41,398 nucleotides of DNA from a virus, in IMG/VR virus record IMGVR_UViG_3300036886_000103, positions 1 to 41,398 of that record. One strand, written 5' to 3'. Within the stretch, counting starts at the first letter, position 1, and the number at the start of each line of letters is the position of its first letter. Both the position numbers and the translations under genes were made by a program. Under the pieces are notes generated by a model, which saw nothing but the letters and a program-made list of their open reading frames with translations, made no database searches and had not been told where the DNA came from. Shown piece after piece: positions 3,667 to 41,398 of this stretch.

Positions 3667-3668
3667 TC

Positions 3669-3677: not shown

Positions 3678-3683
3678 TAGTCT

Positions 3684-3992
3684 ATGTCGAACCAACCTAT
3701 GGTCAAATTCAAACCAGCTCCAGGAATAATAATCGCTCAACAAATAGAGGACTCCAATAAAAATACAATAACAATAACTTCAAAGAGCGACTCACACTTA
3801 AACAAAGGTAAGGTAATTGCTATGGGTGGTGACTTAACTACTCCTATGGGGAACATCATCAAGGCCAATAAGTATTGTAAGGTTGGCGATATCATTTACT
3901 TCTTAAGTTACGAAGGAAATTACGACAATACTACGATAAACGGTAAAAAATATTTTGCAATTAAGTTTGAAGATATGAGGTTTTCAATATGA
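3684..3992 (+). CDS. groES: GroES-like co-chaperonin (Cpn10)
   Basis: A 102-aa product, the usual Cpn10 length. It follows the family pattern: N-terminal P-x-x-G-I-I (PAPGIIIAQQIE), a flexible polar stretch at residues about 22-38 where the mobile loop lies (TITITSK is the likely GroEL-binding segment), then KGKVIAMGGD, KVGDIIYFLSY and GKKYFAIKFEDM near the end. It would cap the chaperonin encoded two genes downstream during ATP-driven folding. Sequence is very divergent from bacterial GroES, as phage co-chaperonins often are. It has its own leaderless promoter and its stop overlaps the next start as ATGA. Confidence 0.8.
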   Translation: MSNQPMVKFKPAPGIIIAQQIEDSNKNTITITSKSDSHLNKGKVIAMGGDLTTPMGNIIKANKYCKVGDIIYFLSYEGNYDNTTINGKKYFAIKFEDMRFSI

Positions 3993-8906: not shown

Positions 8907-9353
8907 ATGCAAGTAACCATAAGACTTAAACCTGCCGAGCTTTTAGTACACACTGTGTCAGTTAGAAGAGTAAACCAAATGGATATTTACTTGTTCCGGT
9001 GTTATAAGTGTGGAACTGCGGTAGCTCAATTCAAGGGTGAGATTGTGAGGATTGAGCCAGGACTACTTCCAAGCGATGACGTACCTGTAGTCAGTCAATG
9101 TTTTCGTTGTAAGGAGTACTACAGCTTCCAAACCACGACAGTTAAAAAAGATAGGATAGAATTAAGATTAGCTAATAATATAGATAGCCATTTTACTACT
9201 TTTCGTTGTGTCCTTTGCCGAATGCAGCTATTAGAATATAACTCTAAATTTGTTAAGTCGTTACCAGAATGGAAGAGTGAGGTATTGCCTTATAAGTTTG
9301 ATTGCTCTGGGAAAGAATGCAACCAAAAATATGTTCTTAAAGACGTCATATAA
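8907..9353 (+). CDS. Double zinc-ribbon protein, 148 aa
   Basis: Contains two four-cysteine clusters: CYKC (32, 35) with CFRC (65, 68), and CVLC (101, 104) with C133/C138. Each pair of CxxC-type knuckles is separated by about 30 residues with beta-strand character, typical of tandem zinc ribbons. Lies between large terminase and portal, and is likely a packaging or head accessory protein that binds nucleic acid or protein. No named family. Confidence 0.65.
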   Translation: MQVTIRLKPAELLVHTVSVRRVNQMDIYLFRCYKCGTAVAQFKGEIVRIEPGLLPSDDVPVVSQCFRCKEYYSFQTTTVKKDRIELRLANNIDSHFTTFRCVLCRMQLLEYNSKFVKSLPEWKSEVLPYKFDCSGKECNQKYVLKDVI

Positions 9354-30649: not shown

Positions 30650-30769
30650 TTATTTAGAACGTGCAAATAAACGATCAAGAAAGAAAAGGACTATAACTCC
30701 TCCAATAACAAAAGGCAGATAATTTAGAGAGATATAAAACATTCCTGTAATTACGTCCATTATACTCAT
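30650..30769 (-). CDS. Antisense-oriented single-span membrane peptide, 39 aa
   Basis: Lies on the minus strand within the late plus-strand block, beginning at the ATG 30769-30767 and ending TAA at 30652-30650, directly after the stop of the ejection protein. Product starts MSIMDVITGMFYISLNYL, continues with a strongly hydrophobic span (PFVIGGVIVLFFL) and ends in a basic tail (DRLFARSK), so the C-terminus should face the cytoplasm. It has its own promoter with a consensus -35. A small phage moron, for instance superinfection exclusion, is possible; function unproven. Confidence 0.6.
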   Translation of the reverse strand: MSIMDVITGMFYISLNYLPFVIGGVIVLFFLDRLFARSK

Positions 30770-30777
30770 ATACTTTA

Positions 30778-30806
30778 ACAATATACTTCTTTTTACACCT
30801 TGTCAA
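30778..30806 (-). promoter_or_regulatory. Promoter of the antisense membrane peptide
   Basis: Minus strand: TTGACA (30806-30801), 17-bp spacer, TATTGT (30783-30778), then 8 bp to the ATG at 30769. It overlaps nothing but the late promoter region of the 30830 gene. Confidence 0.6.
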
Positions 30807-30813
30807 CTGAATA

Positions 30814-30822
30814 TGATATAAT
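30814..30822 (+). promoter_or_regulatory. Extended -10 promoter, near-leaderless 30830 gene
   Basis: TGA-TATAAT (hexamer 30817-30822), 7 bp, ATG at 30830. Reading from an upstream TTG at 30800 would translate this promoter, so the ATG is the start. Confidence 0.55.
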
Positions 30823-30829
30823 TTCATAT

Positions 30830-31249
30830 ATGAACCCCTCACTAATGAGTAGTTTAACCCAAGGTATGCAGGCTGGAAATAGCCCTATGAATCAAGTTAC
30901 ACCTGGTGCACCCAACTTTCAACCAGGCCTACAGTCTCCACAATCAGCTCCTATGCCCAACAAAACCTTTCATCTTGAAGCCGCCTTAAAAAGACGTGGA
31001 ATGCAGATGCCAGCCTCTCTACAAGGAGGCGCACCCCCAGCCCCACCTATGCCTACCGATCCCTCACAAGCTCAAGGACAGCCACAACCAGCACAACCTG
31101 CCCCAGTAGAACCTGCAACACCTTTAAGCGAGGTGGAATTGATAATCAAGGCATTGACAAAACACTTGGATCACCGTGGTAAACTCGAAGCCAAAATCTT
31201 AGAAGCAGCGCTTCCTAAAGATCAAACACCTATTAGTAGTCCACAATAA
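30830..31249 (+). CDS. Pro/Gln-rich hypothetical protein, 139 aa
   Basis: Low-complexity, Pro/Gln/Met/Ala-rich (SLTQGMQAGNSPMNQ; PPAPPMPTDPSQAQGQ) with one helical segment near the C-terminus (SEVELIIKALTKHLDHRGKL). Composition resembles the disordered C-terminus of the portal and some internal virion proteins. Ends with a tandem TAATAA before the HNH gene. Unknown function. Confidence 0.5.
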   Translation: MNPSLMSSLTQGMQAGNSPMNQVTPGAPNFQPGLQSPQSAPMPNKTFHLEAALKRRGMQMPASLQGGAPPAPPMPTDPSQAQGQPQPAQPAPVEPATPLSEVELIIKALTKHLDHRGKLEAKILEAALPKDQTPISSPQ

Positions 31250-31253
31250 TAAT

Positions 31254-31946
31254 ATGCCCACAGGAGTATATATAAGAACTATTAAAGTACAAAAAGTAGA
31301 AGTTTCTTGTCTTTTTTGTAGTAAGAAGAGAATGGTTTATCAATGTGTATTAAATCAAGGTTTTGGTAAATTTTGCAATCGTTCTTGTTCTGCTAAATTC
31401 TACGTTTCACATCTCCATAACAAAGTCGTTTGGGAAAAAATAAGTAAAGCTAAAATGGGCGTAAAATTATCTGAATACCATAAAGAGAGAATGAGATTAA
31501 GCAAAAAAATGCATGGAAAAATACCATGGAATAAAGGATTAAAAGCAACAGAAGATAAAAGAATTAAACATTCAACTGATAAGGCTCATGAAGCAATAAG
31601 AGGTACTATTGCTTGGAACAAAGGAGTTAAAATGCCTCAAATTAGTGGCGAAAAAAGCCATCTTTGGAAAGGTGGAATAACCTCAGAAAGACAAAAAATA
31701 TATCACTCTATAGAATATAAACTTTGGAGAGAGGCAGTATTTATAAGAGATAATTATACTTGTGTTAAATGTTTATCAAGAGGTGGAAAACTTCAAGCCG
31801 ATCATATTAAACCATCGGCATATTTTCCTGAATTAAAATTCGCCATAGATAACGGCCAAACATTATGTAAAGATTGTCATTACTTAAAGACTTGGAGAGT
31901 AGATATTTTATTTAGATATCCAAATTATAAATTTCAACAACAGTAA
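31254..31946 (+). CDS. HNH homing endonuclease with NUMOD-type repeats
   Basis: 230 aa. N-terminal zinc-finger-like CLFC...CNRSC; a DNA-binding region with NUMOD3-type motifs (KIPWNKGLK, TIAWNKGVK, SHLWKGG); and a C-terminal HNH nuclease (CVKCLSRGGKLQADHIKP, then NGQTLCKDCH). These free-standing enzymes nick DNA and promote their own spread between related phages. Higher A/T than its neighbours and insertion between structural and lysis genes suggest a recent arrival. Confidence 0.9.
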   Translation: MPTGVYIRTIKVQKVEVSCLFCSKKRMVYQCVLNQGFGKFCNRSCSAKFYVSHLHNKVVWEKISKAKMGVKLSEYHKERMRLSKKMHGKIPWNKGLKATEDKRIKHSTDKAHEAIRGTIAWNKGVKMPQISGEKSHLWKGGITSERQKIYHSIEYKLWREAVFIRDNYTCVKCLSRGGKLQADHIKPSAYFPELKFAIDNGQTLCKDCHYLKTWRVDILFRYPNYKFQQQ

Positions 31947-31947
31947 T

Positions 31948-32766
31948 ATGGCTACCATCGTAGGGAACGATATTTCAGAATTTCAGAACAACACTAATTG
32001 GGACACTTACAAGAACAATACCAATTTCGTAATTATTCGTGCTACAGTCGGTACAGCTCGAGTGGACAAAAACTTCGTTTCCAATAGAACAGAAGCTCGT
32101 GCTCGTGGTATTCCTTTAGGTTTTTATCACTACGCTTATCCTCAATACAACACACCTGAAGCAGAAGCTGATTATGTACGAAGCGTAATGGGCGACATCA
32201 GAGATGGAGAACTTATTGCTTTAGACTATGAAGAAAGTTGGAGCGGAAACGTGGTTGACTTTTGTAAACGCTTTTTAGACAAACTCTCATCATCACTCAA
32301 CGGGTATAAACCTTTAATATACTTAAATCAATCGTTAATTAAAGGATATGACTGGACGCCGGTAGTAAATGGCGGATATGGTCTTTGGGTAGCCGCTTAT
32401 ACTTATGATCCAAATAAAAACAACTTTGTTACAGGGGCTTGGAAGTTTGCCGCTATGCAACAATGGACGTCAAGTCAGCAAGTACCAGGACTAGTTGGAA
32501 ACGTAGATGGTGACGTCTTTTTTGGCGATGTAGCAACTTTTAAGAAATATGGTTATCATTCACCAGTTGTAGTACCGCCGGACGACCCATGTGCCAATGT
32601 TAAACAGCAATTAGACGTTGCTAATCAAGGCTTGGCAAAAGCTAAAGCTGACTTGGTGGCTCTCCAAACTTTAACGACAAAGCAATTAGCAGACAAAGAT
32701 AAGCTCTGCTTACAAAAAATATCAGACATGAAACAGAAAATAACAACTTATGTCAACGGTCTATGA
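31948..32766 (+). CDS. GH25 lysozyme endolysin
   Basis: 272 aa. Glycoside hydrolase family 25 features: NDISEFQNN near the start (Asp8), GFYHYAYP (58-65), LIALDYEES with the catalytic D-x-E (Asp93, Glu95), and AAMQQWTSSQ near the end of the barrel (about 200). It cleaves the glycan backbone of peptidoglycan. The last 55 residues form a coiled coil/linker (QQLDVANQGLAKAKADLVAL) that may mediate oligomerisation or cell-wall binding. First gene of the lysis cassette, coupled to the HNH gene by TAATATG. Confidence 0.92.
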   Translation: MATIVGNDISEFQNNTNWDTYKNNTNFVIIRATVGTARVDKNFVSNRTEARARGIPLGFYHYAYPQYNTPEAEADYVRSVMGDIRDGELIALDYEESWSGNVVDFCKRFLDKLSSSLNGYKPLIYLNQSLIKGYDWTPVVNGGYGLWVAAYTYDPNKNNFVTGAWKFAAMQQWTSSQQVPGLVGNVDGDVFFGDVATFKKYGYHSPVVVPPDDPCANVKQQLDVANQGLAKAKADLVALQTLTTKQLADKDKLCLQKISDMKQKITTYVNGL

Positions 32767-32902
32767 AAGAATTTACAAAAAGTTGGATAATATAGAACGC
32801 AAAGCCGTTAAAGTCGCTGAAAAAAGGATAAGACATGAGAGGATATAGGAACTCTTAAGAGGTAAAGGTTTCTTTGAGCGAGTTAGACTATTAATGAAAT
32901 AA
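32750..32902 (+). pseudogene. Small basic ORF interrupted by an in-frame TAG
   Basis: From an ATG inside the endolysin 3' end, the frame encodes MSTVYERIYKKLDNIERKAV plus 12 more residues up to TAG at 32846-32848, then continues in the same frame for 17 codons (ELLRGKGFFERVRLLMK) to a TAA that forms the standard TAATATG junction with the next gene. Continuity of frame, charge pattern and junction argue that this is one gene of about 50 codons disrupted by a nonsense change, an assembly error, or a suppressed amber. Basic amphipathic helices; function unknown. Confidence 0.5.
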
Positions 32903-32903
32903 T

Positions 32904-33344
32904 ATGAGAAATAAAGACAATGCAGTCAATGCAGTCAATGCAGTCAATGCAGTCAATGCGGCTAATGCGGCCGCAGTTTCTTTAGCTAATACAACGGCTC
33001 AAAAAGCTGCTGACCTAGCGTCTATTGCTGTTAAAACAGCTTCTGATTTAGCAGCCAAAACAGCCGATACAACCAGACAAATAACAGAAACAGTAGCAAT
33101 AGTCAGCAACAATGTTGAGTGGATGAAAAAATCACTTGAAGGTATTGAACTCAGTCTTTCAGAAATGAGCAAAGCGTTTGTAACAGGAGCTCAACACGAA
33201 GAAGTTTTAAGAGTACAAAAAGACCACGAGGAAAGGTTGCGGAAAATAGAAGACAATATGTATAAGTGGTTAGGAGTAATTGCAACGATTACTTCTATTT
33301 TAACGATAGGTGGAGGACTTATATTAAAATTATTTACAAAATAA
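32904..33344 (+). CDS. Membrane-anchored coiled-coil lysis protein (XhlA-like)
   Basis: 146 aa. N-terminal NAV/NAA repeats, a long heptad-like Ala/Thr region (QKAADLASIAVKTASDLAAK), a second coiled coil (HEEVLRVQKDHEERLRKIED) and one C-terminal membrane span (WLGVIATITSILTIGGGLIL) with a basic end. This layout matches XhlA/haemolysin-type phage lysis accessories found beside holins and endolysins. Inference by architecture. Confidence 0.6.
   Translation: MRNKDNAVNAVNAVNAVNAANAAAVSLANTTAQKAADLASIAVKTASDLAAKTADTTRQITETVAIVSNNVEWMKKSLEGIELSLSEMSKAFVTGAQHEEVLRVQKDHEERLRKIEDNMYKWLGVIATITSILTIGGGLILKLFTK
32919..32972 (+). repeat. 9-bp tandem repeat coding Asn-Ala-Val
   Basis: Four identical AATGCAGTC units (32919-32954) followed by two degenerate ones (AATGCGGCT, AATGCGGCC), encoding NAV x4 and NAA x2. 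Being in-frame 9-mers, slippage changes only the length of the N-terminal coil. Confidence 0.85.
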
Positions 33345-33346
33345 AT

Positions 33347-33427
33347 ATGATATCAATCATCTTGCTACTTCTCGGTTTTCCATTAGGATTTGTTATTTTG
33401 TTTTGGATATTACGAAAATTATTATAA
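33347..33427 (+). CDS. 26-aa single-span membrane peptide
   Basis: Begins two bases after the preceding TAA. Nearly all residues are hydrophobic (MISIILLLLGFPLGFVILFW) with a basic end (ILRKLL). Sits in the lysis cassette between the XhlA-like protein and the holin-like genes; it could be a small holin or lysis modulator. Confidence 0.55.
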   Translation: MISIILLLLGFPLGFVILFWILRKLL

Positions 33428-33457
33428 ATTAACTTAAAAAGGGGTGCTTAATAAAAT

Positions 33458-33655
33458 ATGATTACGATTTCTACAATTTTAATGATAGTGTTGGCAGTTA
33501 TAGTTTTGGTTATTTTGTTTCAGATATTAAATTTAATAGCGGCAAAGTTGGGACTTGACGCAGTATGGGTTAGAATTGGATATTTGATTTTACTTTTGGT
33601 AGCCGTTATTTGGGCATTTGGATTGTTTGGAGTTACACAACCGTTAATTAAATAA
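33458..33655 (+). CDS. Holin-like membrane protein, 65 aa
   Basis: Two membrane spans (residues about 5-29 and 39-60) joined by a short loop AAKLGLDAVWVRIG, and a short C-terminal tail. Size, topology and position after the endolysin fit a small holin. A weak AGGGGTG lies 11 bp upstream of the ATG. Confidence 0.6.
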   Translation: MITISTILMIVLAVIVLVILFQILNLIAAKLGLDAVWVRIGYLILLLVAVIWAFGLFGVTQPLIK

Positions 33656-33656
33656 T

Positions 33657-33908
33657 ATGGAACCACCTATAGTGAAAAGCGAACCTTTTACGCTGAACAA
33701 ATTTGATTGGGCTAAAATATTCAAAGACTCGTTATATTTCTTTCTCGTTCCTTTGGGTTTTTACATTACAGCGGTGTTGGGTGTTATCCAACAACAAGGA
33801 CACTTGATAAGCTTAAAGGATTTTGAGCCATCTAATATTACAATAATTGTGATAGTCGCTTGGCTCTTGAACCAGTTGTTAAGCGTTATTAGAAAATATG
33901 TCGCTTGA
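33657..33908 (+). CDS. Second holin-like membrane protein, 83 aa
   Basis: TAATATG junction. A polar N-terminus (PPIVKSEPFTLNKFDW), a span at about 27-45 (LYFFLVPLGFYITAVLGV), a loop, and a second span at about 60-77 (NITIIVIVAWLLNQLL) with a basic end. Phages often pair a holin with a second small membrane protein; which of the two is the holin cannot be told. Overlaps the next gene by 11 bp. Confidence 0.6.
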   Translation: MEPPIVKSEPFTLNKFDWAKIFKDSLYFFLVPLGFYITAVLGVIQQQGHLISLKDFEPSNITIIVIVAWLLNQLLSVIRKYVA

Positions 33909-34101
33909 AACTCTTAAACCGCCTGAAGACAGAAAGCTTGTTATGGTGGCAAAATGCACCGATTGTAACTGGTATTCATCTTTACCGACCACGACTTTTA
34001 GATTGACTAATGATATGGCATTGTTCAAAGATTATGTCCAAGCACATGAAGAAAGATACGGTCATAAAGTAAATGTTAGCACAGGCCCACCTAACCTATG
34101 A
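33898..34101 (+). CDS. CCHH zinc-finger-like protein, 67 aa
   Basis: Cys20-x2-Cys23 (KCTDCNWYS) and His50-x5-His56 (AHEERYGH) form a classical C2H2-type spacing around a short helix (DMALFKDYVQAHEER). Unusual in a lysis cassette; the WYSSLPTT segment looks like the zinc-finger hairpin. Stop overlaps the next ATG (ATGA). Function unknown. Confidence 0.6.
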   Translation: MSLETLKPPEDRKLVMVAKCTDCNWYSSLPTTTFRLTNDMALFKDYVQAHEERYGHKVNVSTGPPNL

Positions 34102-34259
34102 ACGAGAAACTACGTCCAGAAAGTCAATCGGTTTATAAAATAAAAGATACCGTTCAATCGTGTGATAAGGGTTGTCATAAAGAACGTTCCATAGCCAATT
34201 CTCCAAACCACCTCAAGCATTGGAAAACTATCTTCAAATGGAAACCTAAAACCCCTTAA
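34098..34259 (+). CDS. Small Cys/His protein, 53 aa, last plus-strand gene
   Basis: Coupled to the previous gene by ATGA. Contains SCDKGCHKERS and HLKHWKTIFKWK, so Cys-x3-Cys followed by His-x2-His could again bind zinc, making two consecutive small zinc-finger-like genes. The last 14 bp overlap the 3' end of the convergent minus-strand gene. Confidence 0.5.
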   Translation: MNEKLRPESQSVYKIKDTVQSCDKGCHKERSIANSPNHLKHWKTIFKWKPKTP

Positions 34260-34443
34260 ACTTAAATAGACTCTTTTTATTAGCCTTCCATGTACATTCT
34301 TTTGAACAATATTTCTGATATCGCTTTTGGGCGGTATTCCATTTCATCTTTTTTAATTCTTTGCATATTGAACAGATAGCCATTTGAGGCGGATGAAGTA
34401 GGTCGGCAACAAATCCTTTAATCTTTGGCGGAATTACACGCAT
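34246..34443 (-). CDS. Zinc-finger protein, 65 aa
   Basis: Cys24-x2-Cys27 and Cys46-x3-Cys50 (ICSICKELKKMKW; KYCSKECTWK) form a zinc knuckle of the type found in NUMOD/HNH-associated and phage early proteins. It is the last gene of the leftward block and overlaps the NinG-like gene start region by 26 bp. No catalytic motif. Confidence 0.6.
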   Translation of the reverse strand: MRVIPPKIKGFVADLLHPPQMAICSICKELKKMKWNTAQKRYQKYCSKECTWKANKKSLFKFKGF

Positions 34444-34987
34444 ATTTTTTTATCACTTCTAACGCTTTTAATCTTACCCAAGCGGACGGGGCATCAACTT
34501 TGCTTAATTTGTACAACCTATTATATTCTTCCACCCCATACTTATTGATGACATAATTAGTAAGTATCTCCGGTGAAGGATGAAAACCTTGATCGTGATT
34601 GTAATTGTGATGTTGGCATTGAGTGTGTACATTGCTTTCTTCCCAGCGGGTTAGTTTACGTCCCCGTTTAATAAGATGAGAGGCTTGAAGATAGCTTTTA
34701 CATTTAGGGTCGGGGGTTACACAACGACCATCTCGCCTTTTAATGAAAGTAGCAAAAACATCATCGGCTTTCTTGACAAGTTTAGGAAGTGGTATCATTA
34801 GTACCCTTTTACTCTTAACGGCCTTTCTATGCCCTACTTTCTTGAGCAATTTAGGTGTTTTCTTTATAGTTGAGTTGTATCCGTAATCTTTGAAGTTCCT
34901 AACCGCTTTAACTTTCTTTACTGGCTTCGGGAACCCAATAGGTTTCATTTGGTTTATCAAAGCGTCAGTTAATGGACTGTCTATCAT
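34418..34987 (-). CDS. ninG: NinG/Rap-like recombination nuclease
   Basis: 189 aa. The C-terminal two-thirds match the lambda NinG (Rap) pattern: FIKRRDGRCVTPDPKC (81-96), ASHLIKRGRKLTRWEESNVH (102-121), TQCQHHNYNHDQG (122-134), YVINKYGVEEYNRLYKL. Cys/His/Asn residues here form an HNH-like metal site; lambda Rap resolves Holliday junctions and D-loops. The first 75 residues are a basic extension. It may serve in phage recombination with the early-region proteins at 303-2537. Confidence 0.8.
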   Translation of the reverse strand: MIDSPLTDALINQMKPIGFPKPVKKVKAVRNFKDYGYNSTIKKTPKLLKKVGHRKAVKSKRVLMIPLPKLVKKADDVFATFIKRRDGRCVTPDPKCKSYLQASHLIKRGRKLTRWEESNVHTQCQHHNYNHDQGFHPSPEILTNYVINKYGVEEYNRLYKLSKVDAPSAWVRLKALEVIKKYACNSAKD

Positions 34988-35003
34988 AATTTTTAAGAAC
35001 TAA

Positions 35004-35060
35004 TTGAGAGGGGTAGGATAGGCACTCCAATTACGTTATTCGCCAATAACCCCCTCTCAA
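35004..35060 (-). promoter_or_regulatory. Structured 5' leader of the NinG-like gene
   Basis: On the minus strand a 10-bp perfect stem TTGAGAGGGG/CCCCTCTCAA (35060-35051 with 35013-35004) encloses a second perfect hairpin GTTATT-GGCG-AATAAC (35050-35035) and a 21-nt single-stranded part. It lies in the roughly 90-nt leader between the promoter at 35092 and the ATG at 34987. Could be a cis-regulatory RNA or protein-binding site. Confidence 0.5.
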
Positions 35061-35067
35061 TCAATCC

Positions 35068-35307
35068 TCAAACCCGCAATAATAAAATTATACCAACTAC
35101 TACCAACAATCCTACCATAAAAGACCAGAAGTTATTTCTTAAAAGGGAAAGGGTAAGGCGGAAATAGTTGAGGGGGGTGAAAATATCCCTCGTATTGTAT
35201 ATAGGCGTTGTCCCATTATTCATATAGGGATAGTATTTAACGGTGTTCTCCGCTATAAATTCATTCATAACCTTACTACATTTTTTACAACCACAAACGG
35301 TTATCAT
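35068..35307 (-). CDS. Membrane-anchored Cys-motif protein, 79 aa
   Basis: N-terminal CGCKKC (Cys5, 7, 10) suggests metal or redox chemistry; a middle Tyr/Asn-rich soluble part; C-terminal membrane span at about 58-78 (FWSFMVGLLVVVGIILLL). The N-terminal domain would sit on one face of the membrane. Unrecognised family. Confidence 0.55.
   Translation of the reverse strand: MITVCGCKKCSKVMNEFIAENTVKYYPYMNNGTTPIYNTRDIFTPLNYFRLTLSLLRNNFWSFMVGLLVVVGIILLLRV
35087..35095 (-). promoter_or_regulatory. Extended -10 promoter before the structured leader
   Basis: Minus strand TGG-TATAAT with the hexamer at 35092-35087, inside the 3' end of the 35307 gene; predicted start about 35080. No -35. Confidence 0.5.
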
Positions 35308-35314
35308 ATATTTT

Positions 35315-35407
35315 TTATCTTCTAAATTTTTCTTTCCATTTCATTTGTAACCATATACCGCTTATTACCGCTAAAATAATCCAAATTATTTTAAAGAATA
35401 TGTTCAT
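35315..35407 (-). CDS. 30-aa single-span membrane peptide
   Basis: Follows the XRE gene by 4 bp. MNIFFKIIWIILAVISGIWL forms one membrane span, with a basic tail (QMKWKEKFRR) predicted cytoplasmic. One of at least five such peptides interspersed through the leftward block. Confidence 0.55.
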   Translation of the reverse strand: MNIFFKIIWIILAVISGIWLQMKWKEKFRR

Positions 35408-35411
35408 AATA

Positions 35412-35684
35412 TTATTTAGAACTTAACTTTGGAACTTTTAACTGGGTATTTATAAATATTTGTAAATCTGAAAGGCATTGATTATAACCATAATTTATAT
35501 AATTGCTTATATCTGGCTGTTCCTCTAAATCAATAATAAGTTCTATCACTTTATAAGGAGCTTCTGACTTTCCGCTTTCCCAACCTGATACCGCTACATG
35601 AGATACTCCAAATCGTTTACCAAATTGTTCTTGGCTTTCATGTAAGGACATTCTTAAAATTTTTATCTTTTCTGGTATTGACAT
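35412..35684 (-). CDS. XRE-family helix-turn-helix regulator
   Basis: 90 aa. The N-terminal 60 residues are a Cro/CI-type HTH: KIKILRMSLHESQEQFGKRF, GVSHVAVSGWESGKSEAPYK. The C-terminal part (IDLEEQPDISNYINYGYNQ) may dimerise. Only clear HTH repressor of the window; with the RHH protein it probably sets early/late timing. Immediately upstream is a 31-bp sequence repeated elsewhere in the block. Confidence 0.88.
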   Translation of the reverse strand: MSIPEKIKILRMSLHESQEQFGKRFGVSHVAVSGWESGKSEAPYKVIELIIDLEEQPDISNYINYGYNQCLSDLQIFINTQLKVPKLSSK

Positions 35685-35715
35685 ATTATCTTAAGCTCCT
35701 AAATTAACTAATAAT
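35685..35715 (-). repeat. 31-bp direct repeat, copy 1
   Basis: An identical 31-bp sequence (minus strand beginning ATTATTAGTTAATTTAGGAG) occurs here, ending at the XRE start codon, and at 37038-37068. It contains a GGAG that could be a weak ribosome-binding site and a TTAGTTAA element. Confidence 0.8.
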
Positions 35716-35745
35716 CCTCTGACATTTAAGTCAAAGGGCTAAAAA

Positions 35746-36054
35746 CTAAATCTCCACATTATAAACTCCTGATTTCAAACTATAATCTGCGGTGTTTTGT
35801 TTTGCTGACATTGAAATTCCACCTGCTTGATTAGTAGCCGAATAATACCAAGGATAAACTGGACGAGTTGGATAAACTGGATATTCTCTTATAATATAAG
35901 GACTATTCCAATTATTTATCGTTGTATGTGTTTCCAGCGTAAATTCTTTCCAATCCTCTGGTAATAACTTCTTAAGAGTAGCTATTAACTTTGAAACCTT
36001 AATATTTTCTTCAATCTTTACCGTCTTATTTGTTGTATCTAATTGTATTTTCAT
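35746..36054 (-). CDS. Conserved phage hypothetical, 102 aa
   Basis: N-terminus MKIQLDTTNKTVKIEENIKV plus SKLIATLKKLLPEDWKEF is a pattern I remember from many phage early proteins (strand-strand-helix), followed by a Tyr/Pro-rich middle (PVYPTRPVYPWYYS) and a Gly/Ser tail. Function unknown. Confidence 0.6.
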   Translation of the reverse strand: MKIQLDTTNKTVKIEENIKVSKLIATLKKLLPEDWKEFTLETHTTINNWNSPYIIREYPVYPTRPVYPWYYSATNQAGGISMSAKQNTADYSLKSGVYNVEI

Positions 36055-36057
36055 TTG

Positions 36058-36099
36058 TTATTTCACCCCCTTCAAAAAACTTTTTATACTGGCTCTCAT
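36058..36099 (-). pseudogene. Remnant of a duplicated C-terminus
   Basis: The ATG overlaps the upstream TGA (ATGA) and 13 codons (MRASIKSFLKGVK) match the end of the 37940-38362 protein (DQMRASIKNYKKGL). In that gene the same DNA is read in frame; here the upstream gene enters one frame off and stops. Looks like a recombination scar, though it may still be translated. Confidence 0.35.
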
Positions 36100-36518
36100 T
36101 TGGTCAACAATCCTTCTTTTAACTTTTTAATATCTTTGGCGGGAATTTCTAAAGTAATTGTATAGGTTTTGTCTAATTTTTCAGTTGCCGTTGTCTGATA
36201 TTTACAAACTAATTTATGAAAAAATTGTTCTAATTCCATTCTAATTGTTTGAGCGATTACAGATTTTATAAATTTCTTTACTCCGACTGGGTTTGTAACC
36301 CACGGAAAACCCTGATTATTATTTTCTAATACGAATTTTTTTGTAAATTCTAATTCCCAATTTTCGTGTTTTTCTATTTTATTTTCTTTTAATTTTTTCA
36401 TATACTTTTTATGGTCGTGTCTTTTATTACAGATTTTACAATAGGGCGGAATATCAGTCGGTCCTAAATCAATCGTTTCATTATAGTTAATTGGTTTTCC
36501 TTCTTTTAATGGTTTCAT
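36096..36518 (-). CDS. Hypothetical CxxC protein, 140 aa (paralogue of 37940-38362)
   Basis: Contains CKICNKRHDH (zinc-knuckle-like), then NWELEFTKKFVLENNNQG and a helical C-terminus (ETIRMELEQFF-type). Shares the order CxxC - W..(E/D)F.K.F...N - helix with the 37940 protein, so the two are probably duplicates. Unknown function. Confidence 0.55.
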   Translation of the reverse strand: MKPLKEGKPINYNETIDLGPTDIPPYCKICNKRHDHKKYMKKLKENKIEKHENWELEFTKKFVLENNNQGFPWVTNPVGVKKFIKSVIAQTIRMELEQFFHKLVCKYQTTATEKLDKTYTITLEIPAKDIKKLKEGLLTK

Positions 36519-36520
36519 AT

Positions 36521-36700
36521 TTATATAATTTCTTTTTCTTTCTTCGGCAACTTCCCTTCCAGCTCCTCAATTAAAGATAGGATTTGTTGGGTGTAGAATT
36601 TCTTAATATTTAATTCCCCGAATGTCTTATCTCCTTGTCCAACAAGAAACTGTCCAAACTTCTTATCAAACTTTTTATTTATTTCTTCTATTGTTTTCAT
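36521..36700 (-). CDS. Small hypothetical, 59 aa (paralogue of 38468-38743)
   Basis: Follows the coding pattern MKTIEEINKKFDKKFGQF, then a segment FYTQQILSLIEELEGK that is identical to one in the 38468 protein. At DNA level this portion is also nearly identical. TAA two bases before the next ATG. Function unknown. Confidence 0.55.
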   Translation of the reverse strand: MKTIEEINKKFDKKFGQFLVGQGDKTFGELNIKKFYTQQILSLIEELEGKLPKKEKEII

Positions 36701-36702
36701 AT

Positions 36703-36828
36703 TTATTTTCTAAAACTTAATGCTAATATCATTGTTGGAAGAATTACAAACCAATATTGCCAACTAAACCAATGAAACCCAACTATTCCCATTGATATAC
36801 CTAACCAAAAACCAAAAAGATATTTCAT
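36703..36828 (-). CDS. 41-aa membrane peptide
   Basis: Starts by ATGA overlap with the preceding gene. Aromatic and hydrophobic (FGFWLGISMGIVGFHWFSW; FVILPTMILAL) with a basic end (SFRK): one or two tight membrane spans. Part of the series of small membrane peptides in this block. Confidence 0.55.
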   Translation of the reverse strand: MKYLFGFWLGISMGIVGFHWFSWQYWFVILPTMILALSFRK

Positions 36829-37007
36829 ATTATTTCTTGTATATAATTATTGTTTAACCAAAACATAAAACCATCAAGAGTTATTTCTTGATGACCGCCA
36901 TAGCGACTTGCTCGTTCATTCCATTCGTTAAGTTCTTTTTTATATTCTTGATATAAAATTAAAATTTCTTTTCTTATATTTATTTCTTTTATCTTTGATA
37001 TTGACAT
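36825..37007 (-). CDS. Small hypothetical, 60 aa
   Basis: Begins MSISKIKEINIRKEILILYQ; the first ten residues and 36 bp of DNA around the start codon are repeated at the 38743 start. Rest is helical with a Trp-containing tail. Possibly a domain-swapped relative of the 38468 protein. Unknown. Confidence 0.5.
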   Translation of the reverse strand: MSISKIKEINIRKEILILYQEYKKELNEWNERASRYGGHQEITLDGFMFWLNNNYIQEII

Positions 37008-37013
37008 ATTTAT
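36978..37013 (-). repeat. 36-bp direct repeat spanning a start codon (second copy 38714-38749)
   Basis: Identical 36-bp sequence covers the first nine codons and the upstream ATAAAT of both the 37007 and 38743 genes, evidence of segmental duplication or recombination at gene starts. Confidence 0.8.
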
Positions 37014-37037
37014 ATCTATACTAACTATTAAGAACTT

Positions 37038-37068
37038 ATTATCTTAAGCTCCTAAATTAACTAATAAT
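37038..37068 (-). repeat. 31-bp direct repeat, copy 2
   Basis: Identical to 35685-35715; here it lies between the stop of the methyltransferase-like gene (37069) and the 37007 start. Confidence 0.8.
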
Positions 37069-37623
37069 TTATAACCATTCTATTTGCGGTTTTCCTTTAT
37101 AACCAATTTCCCATACAAACCAAGCAAAAGCCATTGTGCTATTCCAAGGTTTTCCATTCTCATCTAAAGGCGAACCATTACGAAGCGGGTTTTGCCTTGC
37201 TTTGAAAACATAAACAGTTTGGAGTGGACTATTTTCCATAAAAGTTGCCCTCTTTTTTCCTTCAAGGGCTTGTAATTTTCCAAAAAGTATAACCTTTTTC
37301 TCTACCATTGATAAAGCATGCTCAGCAAATTCTTGAAATAAATTAAAAGGCGGATTTGTAATAATTGTTGCCACAGGTAAATGTGAAGTTAAAAAATTAC
37401 TTGATTTCTTATTAGGACCGTATCCTCTATAAACCAAATCACTTGCGATACAACCCTTAATAAGTTTTGCTATCGCACCATCTCCACAAGCAGGTTCCCA
37501 ACAAGGATAAATAATTTCTTCAACTGCTAAAATAGCCTTTGTACTTTCGGTAGGAGTAGCATAAAAATCATTATCAACCCTATCTCTTATTACACTCATT
37601 CCCGCTATTGAATGTCCTTTCAT
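37069..37623 (-). CDS. Adenine-specific DNA methyltransferase-like protein
   Basis: 184 aa. SAM-binding motif I EPACGDGAIA (43-52) and catalytic motif IV NPPF (90-93) mark an N6-adenine methyltransferase. FYATPTESTKAIL (20-32) is a usual phage-MTase N-terminus. No separate target-recognition domain is visible and no cognate nuclease is seen, so it is an orphan enzyme, perhaps protecting phage DNA from host restriction or marking it. Confidence 0.8.
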   Translation of the reverse strand: MKGHSIAGMSVIRDRVDNDFYATPTESTKAILAVEEIIYPCWEPACGDGAIAKLIKGCIASDLVYRGYGPNKKSSNFLTSHLPVATIITNPPFNLFQEFAEHALSMVEKKVILFGKLQALEGKKRATFMENSPLQTVYVFKARQNPLRNGSPLDENGKPWNSTMAFAWFVWEIGYKGKPQIEWL

Positions 37624-37641
37624 AGTTTCTTCAAATAACTT

Positions 37642-37854
37642 TTAATTATTCAAATCCATTGTTTTGGTATAACAACCTCTACAAACTATTTTGCCATCTC
37701 TTCTTTCTTCCATTTCTTCAGGGGAAAAGTCCGCTTTACAAACTTCACATCTTCTATCTCCGACCTCAAAACCGCAACGGCTACAATTATTTCCACAATC
37801 ATCATCAGGATTAACTCCCTGTAAAGGTCTAAAACAATCGCAAGATATGTCCAT
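37642..37854 (-). CDS. Multi-zinc-knuckle protein, 70 aa
   Basis: Start chosen at 37854, two bases after the TAA of the membrane peptide; a longer frame from 37911 reads through that peptide. Nine cysteines: C5, C7, C20, C24, C27, C36, C39, C58, C61, giving at least two CxxC-CxxC pairs (CSRCGFEVGDRRCEVC; CRGC) as in rubredoxin-like zinc ribbons. Likely binds zinc; partner unknown. Confidence 0.6.
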   Translation of the reverse strand: MDISCDCFRPLQGVNPDDDCGNNCSRCGFEVGDRRCEVCKADFSPEEMEERRDGKIVCRGCYTKTMDLNN

Positions 37855-37856
37855 AT

Positions 37857-37943
37857 TTATTTTATTAAAATTGTAACTAAAATCGCTATCAATAACCCCC
37901 ACGTAATCCAAAAACCCATTTCTATTGAAAAATGTATTTTCAT
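37857..37943 (-). CDS. 28-aa single-span membrane peptide
   Basis: Overlaps the preceding stop as ATGA and ends two bases before the next start. MKIHFSIEMGFWITWGLLIA plus ILVTILIK is one membrane span. Confidence 0.55.
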   Translation of the reverse strand: MKIHFSIEMGFWITWGLLIAILVTILIK

Positions 37944-38362
37944 AATCCCTTTTTATAATTTTTAATACTGGCTCTCATTTGGTCAATGGCTTCATTCCAA
38001 TTTAATATTTCTCTTTGAATTGCTACTTCTTCATAAACATTATGATGACTATTTGTGTAAATTCTTTTCTTTGGAATACATTTAATTATTTCTTTTGTTT
38101 GTTTTTTTAATAAGCGGGAAATAAAGTATATCATTGCTGTTGGACCGAAATCTGCTTTGAAACATAATTCCCCCTTCCATTTATCATTTTCTTCAATACA
38201 AAATTCTTTTACAAAATCATCCTTCCAAGTTTTTGCTTTTGTATTATCCTCTTGATGATATTCTTTACAGTTCCTACATTTTCCAATCATATCGGGAGAA
38301 TATGTTGTACAAGACAACTTCTTATTTTCGTAAAATGATTTTGTTTTGTTATAAGTGTTCAT
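37940..38362 (-). CDS. Hypothetical CxxC protein, 140 aa
   Basis: Start at 38362 (MNTYNKTKSFYENKK) is set by ATGA overlap with the membrane peptide; the longer frame from 38431 reads through that peptide. Contains GKCRNCKEYHQEDN and TWKDDFVKEFCIEEND, paralleling the 36096 protein, and ends AIDQMRASIKNYKKGL. Zinc-knuckle plus helical protein of unknown role. Confidence 0.6.
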   Translation of the reverse strand: MNTYNKTKSFYENKKLSCTTYSPDMIGKCRNCKEYHQEDNTKAKTWKDDFVKEFCIEENDKWKGELCFKADFGPTAMIYFISRLLKKQTKEIIKCIPKKRIYTNSHHNVYEEVAIQREILNWNEAIDQMRASIKNYKKGL

Positions 38363-38466
38363 AATTTCATTTTTAATAAAAAATATACACCAAGAGAACC
38401 AAAAATTATAACCGTACTTATCATCCACCAAAAAGCAATTTTTTCGTATCTTTTAGCTCCATTCAT
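38359..38466 (-). CDS. 35-aa single-span membrane peptide
   Basis: Starts one base after a TAG stop (TAG-T-ATG) and ends by ATGA overlap. Basic N-terminus (MNGAKRYEKIAF), then span WWMISTVIIFGSLGVYFLL and KMKL. Confidence 0.55.
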   Translation of the reverse strand: MNGAKRYEKIAFWWMISTVIIFGSLGVYFLLKMKL

Positions 38467-38467
38467 A

Positions 38468-38743
38468 CTATTTTAAATAACTTCTAATAATAACTCTTTG
38501 TTGTTTTCTAAAATCATTTCTTACTTTTCTACTATCATTAAAATAACTTGAACCTTCATCCTCTCCAATAACCTTCCCTTCCAGCTCCTCAATTAAAGAC
38601 AGGATTTGTTGGGTATAGAAAGAAATAACTTCATCTTCGCAAAAATGTTCATCAGGTTCGTGATCTGGACAATTATAAACTCTTAATAAAGGAAATTTCT
38701 TTTTGAACTTTTTATTTATTTCTTTTATCTTTGATATTGACAT
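38468..38743 (-). CDS. Hypothetical, 91 aa (paralogue of 36521-36700)
   Basis: N-terminal MSISKIKEINKKFKKKFPLL, a CPDHEPDEHFCED segment that could bind metal, then FYTQQILSLIEELEGK and a basic tail. N-terminus is shared with 36825-37007 and middle with 36521-36700, so it looks like the complete form of a duplicated, reshuffled module. Ends in TAG. Confidence 0.55.
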   Translation of the reverse strand: MSISKIKEINKKFKKKFPLLRVYNCPDHEPDEHFCEDEVISFYTQQILSLIEELEGKVIGEDEGSSYFNDSRKVRNDFRKQQRVIIRSYLK

Positions 38744-38745
38744 AT

Positions 38746-38928
38746 TTATTTGGCGGTTTTAACTTGTAATACCCACTCTAACGCTTTCTTAAAGCCGACA
38801 TCTTGATTGTAGGCATATTCTGTTAAGGGAGCTGGCCCTTGATAAAGACCTTTAGCCTGAATCTTATCTGGAAAATCTAATATTTTATATTTCTTCAATT
38901 CCGCTTCAATTTGTTTTTGTGTTTTCAT
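38746..38928 (-). CDS. Small hypothetical, 60 aa
   Basis: Two predicted helices flank a QAKGLYQGPAPLTEYAY loop, with a C-terminal FKKALEWVLQ helix. Resembles small phage proteins of unknown function. TAA is separated from the 38743 ATG by two bases; an AGAGGT directly abuts its own ATG. Confidence 0.5.
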   Translation of the reverse strand: MKTQKQIEAELKKYKILDFPDKIQAKGLYQGPAPLTEYAYNQDVGFKKALEWVLQVKTAK

Positions 38929-38945
38929 ACCTCTAATGAACTAAA

Positions 38946-39377
38946 TTATTTAACTGATTTTATACAATCTTTATAAATCTTTTTCCATTGGGCGGGTTTG
39001 AGTTTCTTACTAAATTCCATATCCCGACCTATCCATTTATACCATTCAATCATAAATCCTGTTGGCTTATACCAAAAATTAGGAGCTATTCCCCCCTCTG
39101 CCCATTCTTTATTACCATATTTTTTAAGTAATCTTTTTTGTAATCTTTTCCCATTCATAGCACACCAATCGCAATTATCCTGTCCACACCAACAAAAATG
39201 GTGCATCATAAAAGTATCATTTTCAAAATCCACTCCATAGCCAAACTCGCCACCTAAACCAAACCCAGTTTCTAACTTTAATTTTTTTGAAAGGAACTCC
39301 GTTAAATTAACCAAATCATTATCAATATTGGTAGAAGCCGTTGGTGGAAAAACTATAACCAATTTTTCTTTTTTCAT
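38946..39377 (-). CDS. Cysteine-cluster phage protein, 143 aa
   Basis: Central MMHHFCWCGQDNCDWCA (57-73) clusters two His and Cys62, 64, 69, 72, a probable zinc site; flanked by an N-terminal GLGGEFGYGVDFEND strand region and a C-terminal NFWYKPTGFMIEWYKWIGRD segment. I remember the cluster-plus-FWYKP arrangement from uncharacterised phage and metagenomic proteins. Unknown role. Confidence 0.6.
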   Translation of the reverse strand: MKKEKLVIVFPPTASTNIDNDLVNLTEFLSKKLKLETGFGLGGEFGYGVDFENDTFMMHHFCWCGQDNCDWCAMNGKRLQKRLLKKYGNKEWAEGGIAPNFWYKPTGFMIEWYKWIGRDMEFSKKLKPAQWKKIYKDCIKSVK

Positions 39378-39406
39378 AATCTTTACTGCGGATATACCGC
39401 TAACTT

Positions 39407-40243
39407 TTAACTAAATAAATCTTTCTCCAAATATTCCCCTAAATACATTCCTTTTTTACCAAATACTTTGGCTTTTCCTTTTACAAAAACTATCATCACA
39501 CCAAGTTTTAGGAAATTAAAAAACCAATGCTTTATAGGCAATCCTAAAACTACTTTTACGGCCCAATATGAAGTCGCCCCGACCTGATCCCCGACCTGAT
39601 CCCAGACCTGACCCCAGACCTGATCCCCGACCTGACCCCCGACCTGATCCCAGACCTGACCCCAGACCTGACCCCAGACCTGACCCCTGACCTGATCCCC
39701 GACCTGACCCCAGACCTGACCCCAGACCTGACCCCCGACCTGATCCCTGACCTGACCCCAGACCTTTTTAGGTATTTTTTTCTTAATGTCTATAAGGCGA
39801 GGTAATTTAGTCGCCTGATAAGGATTGTATTTTTCAATCGGTTGTTTTTTGAATTTATTTATTTTGTCTTGAAAAATTAAGAGTAGAGGATTAACCTTTT
39901 TGGCTAAATTATGGAATTTGGGTTCAAGTAACTTATCCCATTCATTAGGAACTTTCTTTAACCATTTGGCTAACTTTACATCAGTATTAAAGTTCTTTTT
40001 AACGGACTTTTCCACTAACTTTTGAGCTTTATTTTCGTCTATCTCATCCAGTATCTCTTGAGCCACTTGGTCGTAGTGGACTTGTCTTACTTCCTTTTCC
40101 CACCATAGATACTCAAATTTTCTAAACTTATCCCCGTCTATTTTTAACTGACTTTCAGCGTCTGAATGAGAATTAGTATTACCATAGACTGCTTTCTTAT
40201 TGTTAGCGAAAAAGGCGACTCCTTCACACATAATTTTAAGCAA
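39407..40243 (-). CDS. Protein with 15 tandem [W/R/G][G/D]QV tetrapeptides
   Basis: 278 aa (ATG at 40231, MCEGVAFF, is an alternative start). Residues 1-140 are helical and charged ([31 protein letters not shown]); residues 162-221 consist of 15 exact tetrapeptide repeats in which the first position is Trp, Arg or Gly, the second Gly or Asp, and the last two always Gln-Val; residues 225-278 form a hydrophobic beta-rich end ([16 protein letters not shown]). The repeat pattern implies a regular beta-solenoid or amphipathic helix presenting variable residues on one face. I recall W-x-Q-V repeats in uncharacterised proteins (DUF6745-like), without known activity. Confidence 0.65.
39581..39760 (-). 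repeat. 15 x 12-bp tandem repeat within a gene
   Basis: Fifteen consecutive 12-mers of coding-strand form NGGG(G/A)TCAGGTC, with N being T, A or G. Only base 1 and base 5 vary, and both change the amino acid; none of the other ten bases, including all wobble positions, changes in any unit. Confidence 0.9.
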
Positions 40244-40255
40244 TGCTTTTAACTT

Positions 40256-40330
40256 TTAATAACGACTATCTATATTCCACACAATTACTAACGCCATTAC
40301 TAAATAAAATATAGTCCAGTACTCAATCAT
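40256..40330 (-). CDS. 24-aa single-span membrane peptide
   Basis: Starts by ATGA overlap with the preceding gene. MIEYWTIFYLVMALVIVWN forms one span, followed by IDSRY. Smallest of the series. Confidence 0.5.
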   Translation of the reverse strand: MIEYWTIFYLVMALVIVWNIDSRY

Positions 40331-40512
40331 TTTTTAGCGGACTTAACTTGTAAATCCATATATTCTGGGTTTTTCATTCTTTTACCTAACCATATAACAA
40401 ACTCTGCGTTTACCATCAAGGCCGCCCCTCTTTCCTTACACTTACCTTTAGGAAACCATTTATCTATAAGTTCTTCTAATTTATCCCGTTCTGGAAAACT
40501 ATATGTGGTCAT
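40327..40512 (-). CDS. Small hypothetical, 61 aa
   Basis: Amphipathic helices with a KWFPKGKCKERGAALMVNAE segment that is typical of small phage early proteins; no named family. Between the RHH regulator and the membrane peptide, coupled to the latter. Confidence 0.5.
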   Translation of the reverse strand: MTTYSFPERDKLEELIDKWFPKGKCKERGAALMVNAEFVIWLGKRMKNPEYMDLQVKSAKK

Positions 40513-40519
40513 ATCTATT

Positions 40520-40699
40520 TTAGTGAACTAATCTATTTCTAACTTGTCTCACGCTTCCGGTTAAGTAATCATTAAGTATTTGCCGGAGTATCTTGGACTT
40601 TGACACTTGCCTAACCTTTGACAACTTACAAATGTACTTGTATTGGTCTTTGGAAATGATAAGTGAAATTATTACGTGATCTTTATCTTTTAAGCTCAT
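40520..40699 (-). CDS. Ribbon-helix-helix (CopG/Arc-like) regulator, 59 aa
   Basis: ATG 40699 is chosen over 40720 since it lies 6 bp after a TATACT box and avoids overlapping the previous gene. The product has the RHH pattern: strand HVIISLIISKDQ, helix YKYICKLSKVRQ, turn VSKS and second helix KILRQILNDYL, with a basic C-terminus. It would bind DNA as a dimer of strands in the major groove. The inverted repeat just upstream (40723-40738) is a likely autoregulatory operator. Confidence 0.7.
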   Translation of the reverse strand: MSLKDKDHVIISLIISKDQYKYICKLSKVRQVSKSKILRQILNDYLTGSVRQVRNRLVH

Positions 40700-40703
40700 A
40701 TAT

Positions 40704-41324
40704 TTAGTATATAACTTCATTATGTCCTAAATAGGACAAATTGTTATAAGCGCTCCAACTTGTAAAGCTATTTCCATGACTTTTATATAGTCCATAAGCA
40801 AAGTCGGTTGACTTAAAGCAATCGTTAGCGTCCTCAAGTGTAATAGCCCCACTTCTTATATGAATGTCATTTATTTGCCAAAGTCCATGATCGTAAGTAC
40901 CGTTGCTATTTCGTCCACCAGTGCGACTACAATCAAAGTGTTTAGTCCAATTCCAAGCGTTCTCACTTTTGGCAATTCTTATAGCAATCGAGTAGTCCCA
41001 GTCTTTACTTGAAATATAATCCGCTATGGTCTGATCCGTTGTCATTGTTTTTAACTTAGGTGTTGCCGTTGGAGATGGCAAAATTTGACGTTCCTTGCCG
41101 TTGTCCTTGCGTGGAACACTTGTTGGTAGTGGTTCTATGCTCCTTGAATTCTCATACATATAAACACGCTTAAAAGGTGATCGAAGTAATATCGGACTTT
41201 GAAACGAAAAGTATTTACCAAACTTATACGCTCCGTACATAAGAGCCAATATGAAGAAAGCCATTATGAGAACTTTAGTAACATCGTTTGTATGGTTTGT
41301 ACTATCTTTAAGATATTTTTTCAT
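40704..41324 (-). CDS. Membrane-anchored lysozyme / lytic transglycosylase-like protein
   Basis: 206 aa from ATG 41324, which overlaps the stop of the previous gene as ATGA (41354 is an alternative). Residues 17-32 are a membrane anchor (VLIMAFFILALMYGAY), 60-95 a Pro/Ser-rich linker, and 97-206 a lysozyme-superfamily domain: Glu121 in AKSENAWNW is the catalytic acid, GLWQIN (147-152) the signature, DCFKSTDFAYGLYKSHG the following helix, and WSAYN the end. It would act on the outside of the membrane. Its place in the early strand, not with the lysis genes, suggests entry, wall remodelling or exclusion of other phages rather than lysis. Confidence 0.75.
   Translation of the reverse strand: MKKYLKDSTNHTNDVTKVLIMAFFILALMYGAYKFGKYFSFQSPILLRSPFKRVYMYENSRSIEPLPTSVPRKDNGKERQILPSPTATPKLKTMTTDQTIADYISSKDWDYSIAIRIAKSENAWNWTKHFDCSRTGGRNSNGTYDHGLWQINDIHIRSGAITLEDANDCFKSTDFAYGLYKSHGNSFTSWSAYNNLSYLGHNEVIY
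40706..40711 (-). promoter_or_regulatory. -10 box for a leaderless RHH gene
   Basis: Minus-strand TATACT (40711-40706), 6 bp, ATG at 40699. The -35 region falls inside the 40723-40738 inverted repeat. Confidence 0.45.
40723..40738. promoter_or_regulatory. Perfect inverted repeat, probable RHH operator
   Basis: TGTCCTA-AA-TAGGACA: two 7-bp half sites with a 2-bp centre, inside the 3' end of the lysozyme-like gene and overlapping the -35 position of the RHH gene promoter. Typical geometry for RHH autorepression. Confidence 0.55.
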
Positions 41325-41398
41325 TTTGATAACATTTTTACAATTTCTAACCATTGTTTCATATTAAGATAGCCGATAACACTATCATCACATTTATA
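41321..41398 (-). CDS. C-terminal part of the gene broken by the window ends
   Basis: Open from the right edge: the frame reads YKCDDSVIGYLNMKQWLEIV plus KMLSK, ending in a TGA that overlaps the 41324 start. The DDSVIGYL element is the expected C-terminus of the family to which the 1-215 fragment belongs, so the two are likely one gene of about 97 residues. The left fragment ends with two bases of an unfinished codon while this one starts on a codon boundary. Confidence 0.6.
   Translation of the reverse strand, partial: YKCDDSVIGYLNMKQWLEIVKMLSK

Follow-up and report, generated by a model that had tools for sequence, protein, structure and literature searches.

Here we describe five very small open reading frames (ORFs) encoding predicted membrane peptides in a phage sequence, IMG/VR record IMGVR_UViG_3300036886_000103 (positions 1 to 41,398; this whole stretch of 41,398 bases is hereafter the window). 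The plus strand carries phage hallmarks, namely GroEL (phrog_5725, E 2e-122), a large terminase, a major head protein and an endolysin. A minus-strand block at 34246-41354 carries a helix-turn-helix (HTH) regulator and a methylase, together with weaker matches to SLT/lysozyme-like, ribbon-helix-helix (RHH) and NinG-like proteins. Strand, position and gene content suggest that this block is early. A first-pass annotation had proposed a chain of tiny membrane peptides within it, and all five frames, of 24-41 amino acids (aa), are present where it placed them, on the minus strand and with ATG starts (nt, nucleotides):

40256-40330, minus strand: 24-aa single-span peptide (MIEYWTIFYLVMALVIVWNIDSRY); ATGA overlap with the 61-aa gene at 40327-40512, and 12 nt before the repeat-protein gene
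38359-38466, minus strand: 35-aa single-span peptide; 1 nt after the 91-aa gene, with an ATGA overlap into the 140-aa Cys-containing gene at 37940-38362
37857-37943, minus strand: 28-aa single-span peptide; ATGA overlap with 37940-38362, and TAA-AT-ATG to 37642-37854
36703-36828, minus strand: 41-aa hydrophobic Trp/Phe-rich peptide with one or two weak spans; ATGA overlap with 36825-37007, and TAA-AT-ATG to 36521-36700
35315-35407, minus strand: 30-aa single-span peptide with the basic C-terminal tail WKEKFRR; 4 nt after the HTH gene and 7 nt before the 79-aa gene at 35068-35307

In the order of transcription, with the five peptides named by length and the spacing to the next gene given in brackets (nt; negative values are overlaps), the chain consists of a 61-aa gene (-4), TM24 (+12), the repeat protein (+29), a 143-aa protein (+17), a 60-aa protein (+2), a 91-aa protein (+1), TM35 (-4), a 140-aa protein (-4), TM28 (+2), a 70-aa protein (+18), the methylase (+61), a 60-aa protein (-4), TM41 (+2), a 59-aa protein (+2), a 140-aa protein (+41), a 102-aa protein (+61), the HTH regulator (+4), TM30 (+7), a 79-aa protein (+80) and the NinG-like protein. 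The junctions that had been taken as characteristic, ATGA and TAA-AT-ATG, account for six of the ten flanks: ATGA is found at the starts of 40256, 37857 and 36703 and at the end of 38359, and TAA-AT-ATG at the ends of 37857 and 36703. The other four flanks are spacings of 1, 4, 7 and 12 nt.

Membrane spans were judged by hydropathy. The best 17-residue Kyte-Doolittle (KD) means are 2.35 for 35315, 1.42 for 36703, 2.52 for 37857, 2.14 for 38359 and 2.02 for 40256, so that the description of one hydrophobic span each holds for four peptides (2.0-2.5) and is weak for 36703. The basic tail is found in three of the five (clear in 35315; FRK in 36703; KMKL in 38359) and is missing from 37857 and 40256. 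The five peptides as paralogues of one another were considered and rejected: of 21 protein pairs among seven peptides (these five plus 30650 and 33347, described below), two gave P < 0.05 (36703/37857, 0.02; 33347/30650, 0.043), which is about what is expected for 21 tests, and all ten DNA pairs gave P values of at least 0.06.

In this AT-rich block many short ORFs are hydrophobic, so that the mere presence of such ORFs is not unusual; what is unusual is their end-to-end fit. If the five micro-ORFs are removed, gaps of 83, 105, 85, 124 and 104 nt are left, whereas the remaining spacings in the early block are at most 61 nt, except for one unfilled gap of 80 nt. Thus, five of the six gaps of at least 75 nt between larger early genes are filled end to end by micro-ORFs. 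We first compared this with a null in which the whole gap was shuffled with dinucleotides kept (5000 shuffles per gap; hydrophobic defined as KD >= 1.6, a threshold above the 1.42 of the fourth gap's real filler, 36703). Filled gaps with a hydrophobic product arose in 70, 16, 24, 214 and 1 of the 5000 shuffles for the five gaps. A recurrent leader, AAATAAATATG, is present in the window in five exact copies and in 12 copies at no more than one mismatch (2.95 expected). The TAA-AT-ATG junction belongs to this leader, and its stop codon terminates 36703 and 37857. Because the leader contains a stop, the test was repeated with start context and leader held fixed (first 6 and last 14 bases of every gap; hydrophobic defined as KD >= 1.4). 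Under this second null the fill probabilities per gap were 0.12, 0.11, 0.31, 0.15 and 0.059, the probability of filling at least five of six gaps was 1.3e-4, and that of doing so with a hydrophobic product was 1.4e-7. The gaps contain 33-44% T, and random fillers of the same gaps were hydrophobic in 10-69% of cases; the probability that all five are hydrophobic, given that they are filled, was 3.1e-3. Hydrophobicity beyond the composition of the gaps is thus supported, only moderately.

The start sites point in the same direction. A weight matrix built from 40 called starts displays no Shine-Dalgarno (SD) motif and an A/T-rich leader; an SD motif precedes 3% of 30 confident window genes. Among 1070 other ATGs, the micro-ORF leaders rank at percentiles of 0.997 (35315), 0.994 (36703), 0.980 (37857) and 0.850 (40256), with the remaining start at 0.974, and four of the five therefore outscore 97% of these non-start ATGs. 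As the gaps are AT-rich, GC-matched controls provide the fairer comparison, and the fractions of these scoring as high or higher were 0.014, 0.049, 0.080, 0.104 and 0.134. Singly these scores are weak; jointly they point one way. SD use among the related phages ranges from 4% to 61%, as against 3% in the window, whose leader is close to AAATAAATATG. This spread suggests that members of the phage family infect hosts that initiate translation in different ways.

The structural genes place the window in a broad family of ~40 kb phage contigs. A portal alignment found 49 viral contigs and three genome contigs, with an identity of only 22% for the third genome contig (L153), and 20 related contigs were read whole or in large part. 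Terminal repeats of 99-149 bases, as would be seen in circular assemblies, are present in seven of these 20. One relative lies within a Patescibacteria metagenome-assembled genome (MAG) and another within a Brocadia MAG; among 379 genomes of the Patescibacteria phylum, a strong portal match was found only in that MAG, plus one marginal match. In the 20 relatives, hydrophobic ORFs filled 8 of 160 gaps (0.32 expected from a plain shuffle). With the stricter null, 29 of 193 gaps were filled in 51 portal- or terminase-related contigs (5.71 expected), 8 of them with hydrophobic products (0.77 expected), and 21 of 91 in 80 methylase-carrying contigs (3.60 expected), 4 of them hydrophobic (0.65 expected). 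The antisense control filled 0 of 193 gaps in the first set and 6 of 91 in the methylase set, none hydrophobic. The class of hydrophobic gap fillers therefore recurs in relatives at other junctions; individual genes do not.

An operon caller found three membrane micro-ORFs in the window, four in G002, two each in G001 and G017, and one each in G026, G030 and G021. Some of those in relatives lie by apparent lysis genes (G001 2234-2317; G002 2740-2817 and 3579-3740). Others lie amid non-structural genes (G026 9188-9283; G030 7825-7908), directly after an anchored SLT/lysozyme-like gene with an ATGA junction. A fixed pairing of an SLT-like gene with a membrane micro-ORF after it was considered and rejected, being found in G026 and G030 and not in G027, G023 or G024. 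The GED-motif gene 38468 was likewise rejected as a fixed partner: it has relatives in G002, G015 and G016, of which only that in G002 has a hydrophobic neighbour (83 aa, on the other side). That a repeat protein adjoins a membrane micro-ORF in the window as well as in G026 is suggestive; the two repeat proteins are alike in the repeat only.

Several observations weigh against reading the five ORFs as early genes for membrane effectors. ATG ORFs of 20-55 aa in 34246-41398 are equally hydrophobic in 9 of 16 cases on the minus strand and in 6 of 17 on the plus strand. For the window test, the limits of the gaps were set once the ORFs had been seen, and the survey counts are not independent, given near-duplicates among the related contigs (for example, G015/G016). 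No membrane micro-ORF was called in 14 of the 20 relatives. A first, codon-model gene caller called only 38359 of the five (score -3.4), and a second caller gave negative codon/composition scores to the micro-ORFs that it called (-5.0, -2.4 and -2.2). This missing codon-model support might be anticipated when hydrophobic frames have only 24-41 codons, yet it counts on the same side. The peptides gave self matches only at E <= 0.01 against all ORFs of at least 20 aa in the 20 related contigs and the window, no homologue at E <= 1 in 50,697 phage records, and only weak hydrophobic matches in PHROGs and Pfam (best, phrog_5469, E 0.0027 for 35315). Two of the frames, 35315 and 37857, were overlooked by the callers because their neighbours 35068 and 37642 were not called, and micro-ORFs of other genomes may be undercounted by the same callers.

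Conservation of the frames in related genomes, on which the first-pass annotation had made its proposal depend, came out negative at the sequence level. It could hardly have been otherwise: the early block is so divergent that orthologous junctions barely exist. Among the larger early genes, those matched outside the window at E <= 0.01 in the 20 contigs were the NinG-like gene, 38468 (E 0.0033), the repeat protein (in the repeat only) and the SLT-like gene; also matched were genes 303 and 2064, which lie on the same strand toward the left of the window. Most of the early block being without relatives, the absence of homologues does not single out the micro-ORFs. Two routes to orthologous junctions were tried and rejected. 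The methylase has many relatives in other phages, with almost no other early gene in common, and relatives found through terminase and portal have the structural block in common and the early block almost entirely not. Scans with the single proteins 38946, 21870, 38468 and 36096 found no relatives by exact 8-mer patterns, a limit of the pattern for at least 21870, which is 73% identical in L094.

Taken together, the five frames are real as sequence features and very likely genes, and the gap-filling and leader tests support the proposal of small genes in the early chain that encode predicted membrane-spanning peptides. We consider it probable that they are genuine small early-operon genes with single-span membrane products acting as helpers or effectors on membrane partners. 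Starting from the computed frames, end-to-end fit, leaders and hydrophobic spans, we infer expression, membrane insertion and a function, most likely that of fast-evolving early membrane effectors or anchors. Translation would proceed by start/stop coupling or from the A/T-rich, SD-less leader. Each peptide would cross the cytoplasmic membrane once and work as a small helper or effector by binding a partner embedded in a membrane. On the host side this partner might be a transporter or an enzyme of secretion or of the cell envelope; on the phage side it might be a membrane protein, for example the anchored SLT-like protein. The set would be replaced rapidly from one phage to another, in keeping with a part in host interaction. 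For the roles suggested at first, namely remodelling of the host membrane, a block to superinfection and regulation of host enzymes, no homology was found in the 20 relatives, PHROGs, Pfam or the 50,697 phage records; superinfection exclusion is one conceivable effector role, not singled out by the evidence.

Other explanations account for part of these data. In an SD-less phage, short ORFs spanning the gaps might pass ribosomes on by termination-reinitiation; the peptide itself would be of little importance and would owe its hydrophobicity to the T-rich gap. The window and G002, the two nearly SD-less genomes (3% and 4%), do rank highest in number of membrane micro-ORFs (three and four) when one caller is applied to the window and its 20 relatives, and the coupled junctions and the frequency of hydrophobic random fillers fit such bridges. 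However, five hydrophobic products given filled gaps are not expected from them (P = 3.1e-3), and other early gaps of 29-80 nt have no bridge; we regard this explanation as unlikely. A peptide might instead serve as membrane anchor or channel of the adjoining soluble protein, as in two-gene exclusion systems like lambda RexA/RexB. The peptides alternate with soluble genes in tight coupling (for example, 38359 into 37940 by ATGA), and PMC6426596 describes RexAB and Sbash gp30/gp31 as phage defence systems of a cytoplasmic and a membrane protein. The same source gives RexB and Sbash gp31 four predicted spans, whereas the peptides here have one. Furthermore, the similar soluble proteins 36521 and 38468 lie on opposite sides of their micro-ORFs (36703 precedes 36521; 38359 follows 38468), and the motif relatives of 38468 in G015/G016 lack such a neighbour. 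A DUF4747 soluble partner was not found at E <= 0.1 in a Pfam scan of 36096, 38946, 39407, 37642, 35412 and 37069, a scan that left out 37940, 38468, 36521, 36825, 38746 and 40327. Such soluble-membrane pairs seem to us quite unlikely.

A further explanation concerns origin and is compatible with early membrane effectors: the ORFs might be young proto-genes, recent and lineage-specific, arisen de novo from T-rich spacers, some selected and some neutral. The lack of homologues and of paralogy and the T content of the gaps agree with this, as does the widespread transmembrane-domain potential of thymine-rich intergenic regions in yeast, from which de novo membrane peptides are described in PMC7005711. 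Five exact fits, though, exceed the composition-preserving null, and most of the early block is equally without relatives; on its own, this origin is distinctly unlikely as the explanation. We give a similarly low weight to a dual role in nearly SD-less phages, in which micro-ORFs would carry ribosomes across gaps by stop-start coupling while their hydrophobic products, born in place from T-rich operon spacers, are recruited as fast-changing early membrane effectors. Least credible, and very improbable, are accidental hydrophobic ORFs in AT-rich gaps. The equally hydrophobic ORFs on the opposite strand and codon scores that do not favour the five frames would fit chance, but the probability of 1.4e-7 and the leader scores stand against it.

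Two further peptides had been grouped with the five; both differ from the early chain in their setting:

30650-30769, minus strand: sixth peptide, a 39-aa hydrophobic antisense ORF in a late-region gap; ATG at 30769, with a longer frame starting at TTG 30781
33347-33427, plus strand: seventh peptide, a 26-aa hydrophobic peptide in the late-strand lysis cassette, with leader AAATAAATATG and an excellent leader score of 6.55

The sixth has a poor leader score (0.32) and stands isolated between two late genes; it lies outside the chain, and its reality as a gene is uncertain. A promoter-like match (TTGACA-17-TATTGT) lies just upstream, though such matches are in total not above shuffles (47 against 43.4 in 30500-41398). 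At a comparable position, the minus strand of G016 encodes a 139-aa protein that has an N-terminal span and looks unrelated. The seventh is preceded by the endolysin at 31948-32766 (phrog_291, E 1.5e-44) and by a 146-aa, C-terminally hydrophobic protein.

The remaining features of the chain are as follows:

40704-41354, minus strand: SLT/lysozyme-like protein with an N-terminal membrane anchor, at the head of the minus-strand block; SLT_3 E 4.8e-4, below the gathering cut-off; homologues in G027, G023 and G024
39407-40243, minus strand: repeat protein encoded directly after the 24-aa peptide, with a tandem array of 12-nt (4-residue) units; start TTG 40243 or ATG 40231
37069-37623, minus strand: DNA methyltransferase-like protein in the same gene chain; phrog_799 E 1.8e-52
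35412-35684, minus strand: HTH_3 regulator, upstream of the 30-aa peptide; Pfam HTH_3 E 9.4e-7, above cut-off
35068-35307, minus strand: 79-aa protein with a Cys near the N terminus and a C-terminal hydrophobic span, directly after the 30-aa peptide

Pfam and PHROG searches with the 79-aa protein gave nothing above noise; it is no microprotein, yet it counts toward the membrane content of the early block. The N-terminally anchored SLT/lysozyme-like protein recurs in non-structural blocks (window, G026, G027, G023, G024 and G030), separate from the late endolysin. In-frame 12-nt tandem arrays are present in two early-block genes, at 39577-39765 of the window (minus strand) and at 9408-9660 of G026 (L182). 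In both, the copies are almost identical and variation is confined to fixed single positions. The G026 array has 19 copies of DGG TCG GAG CTT, in which only the first base varies, as A, G or T and never C (Trp/Arg/Gly); the window array varies at the same NGG position (T, A, G) and at an adjoining G/A position. Further arrays have one or two variable columns (for example, G001 35042-35190, L034 12464-12638 and L040 1-209). Small early genes are also apparently duplicated: 36825-37007 and 38468-38743 both begin MSISKIKEIN, and 36521-36700 and 38468-38743 match each other (phmmer E about 4e-10). A pattern search for the MSISKIKEIN coding pattern matched no viral contig. The phage-encoded GroEL lies at 4146-5741, with a GroEL match in 6 of 13 records tested, and no tRNAs were found.

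If real, these five genes would escape the usual gene callers (one of the five was found by the codon-model caller), and the survey, with filled gaps about five-fold above chance, suggests the same blind spot in relatives. Where phages infect uncultured hosts, genes of this sort would be candidate agents of host-membrane takeover, and they would offer a way to study how membrane peptides arise from spacer DNA.

Small phage proteins are an established theme, as PMC11323111 indicates, and the five peptides belong to a known kind, the small membrane proteins of phages. Like phage proteins of <100 aa in general, they are short and of a class often left unannotated; the difference is that no family member is detectable for any of them. 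Their frames are below 100 aa and are supported as coding by the gap fill (P 1.3e-4) and the leaders, and hydropathy gives them at least one predicted span; conservation among related phages, which would support membership without defining it, was not found. Five single-span peptides within 5 kb is a density that looks high and is not proven exceptional, a neutral caller giving three here and up to four in a relative. A literature search covering few subscription journals found no paper on a chain of single-span early phage microproteins. RexA/RexB and Sbash gp30/gp31 resemble the chain in setting a soluble gene beside a membrane gene; peptides of 24-41 aa are too short for the four spans of those membrane partners, and no homology was found. 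Holin-like and spanin-like proteins of lysis cassettes have similarly short hydrophobic spans, the seventh peptide lies near the endolysin, and in G002 and G001 spans of 25 and 27 aa are next to apparent lysis genes. By contrast, the five peptides are on the opposite strand, amid regulator and methylase genes and at least 2.5 kb from the endolysin. The T-rich proto-genes of yeast (PMC7005711) are likewise short, lineage-restricted and hydrophobic by composition; the difference here is that the frames fit end to end between genes and that four of the five carry the genome's own leader.

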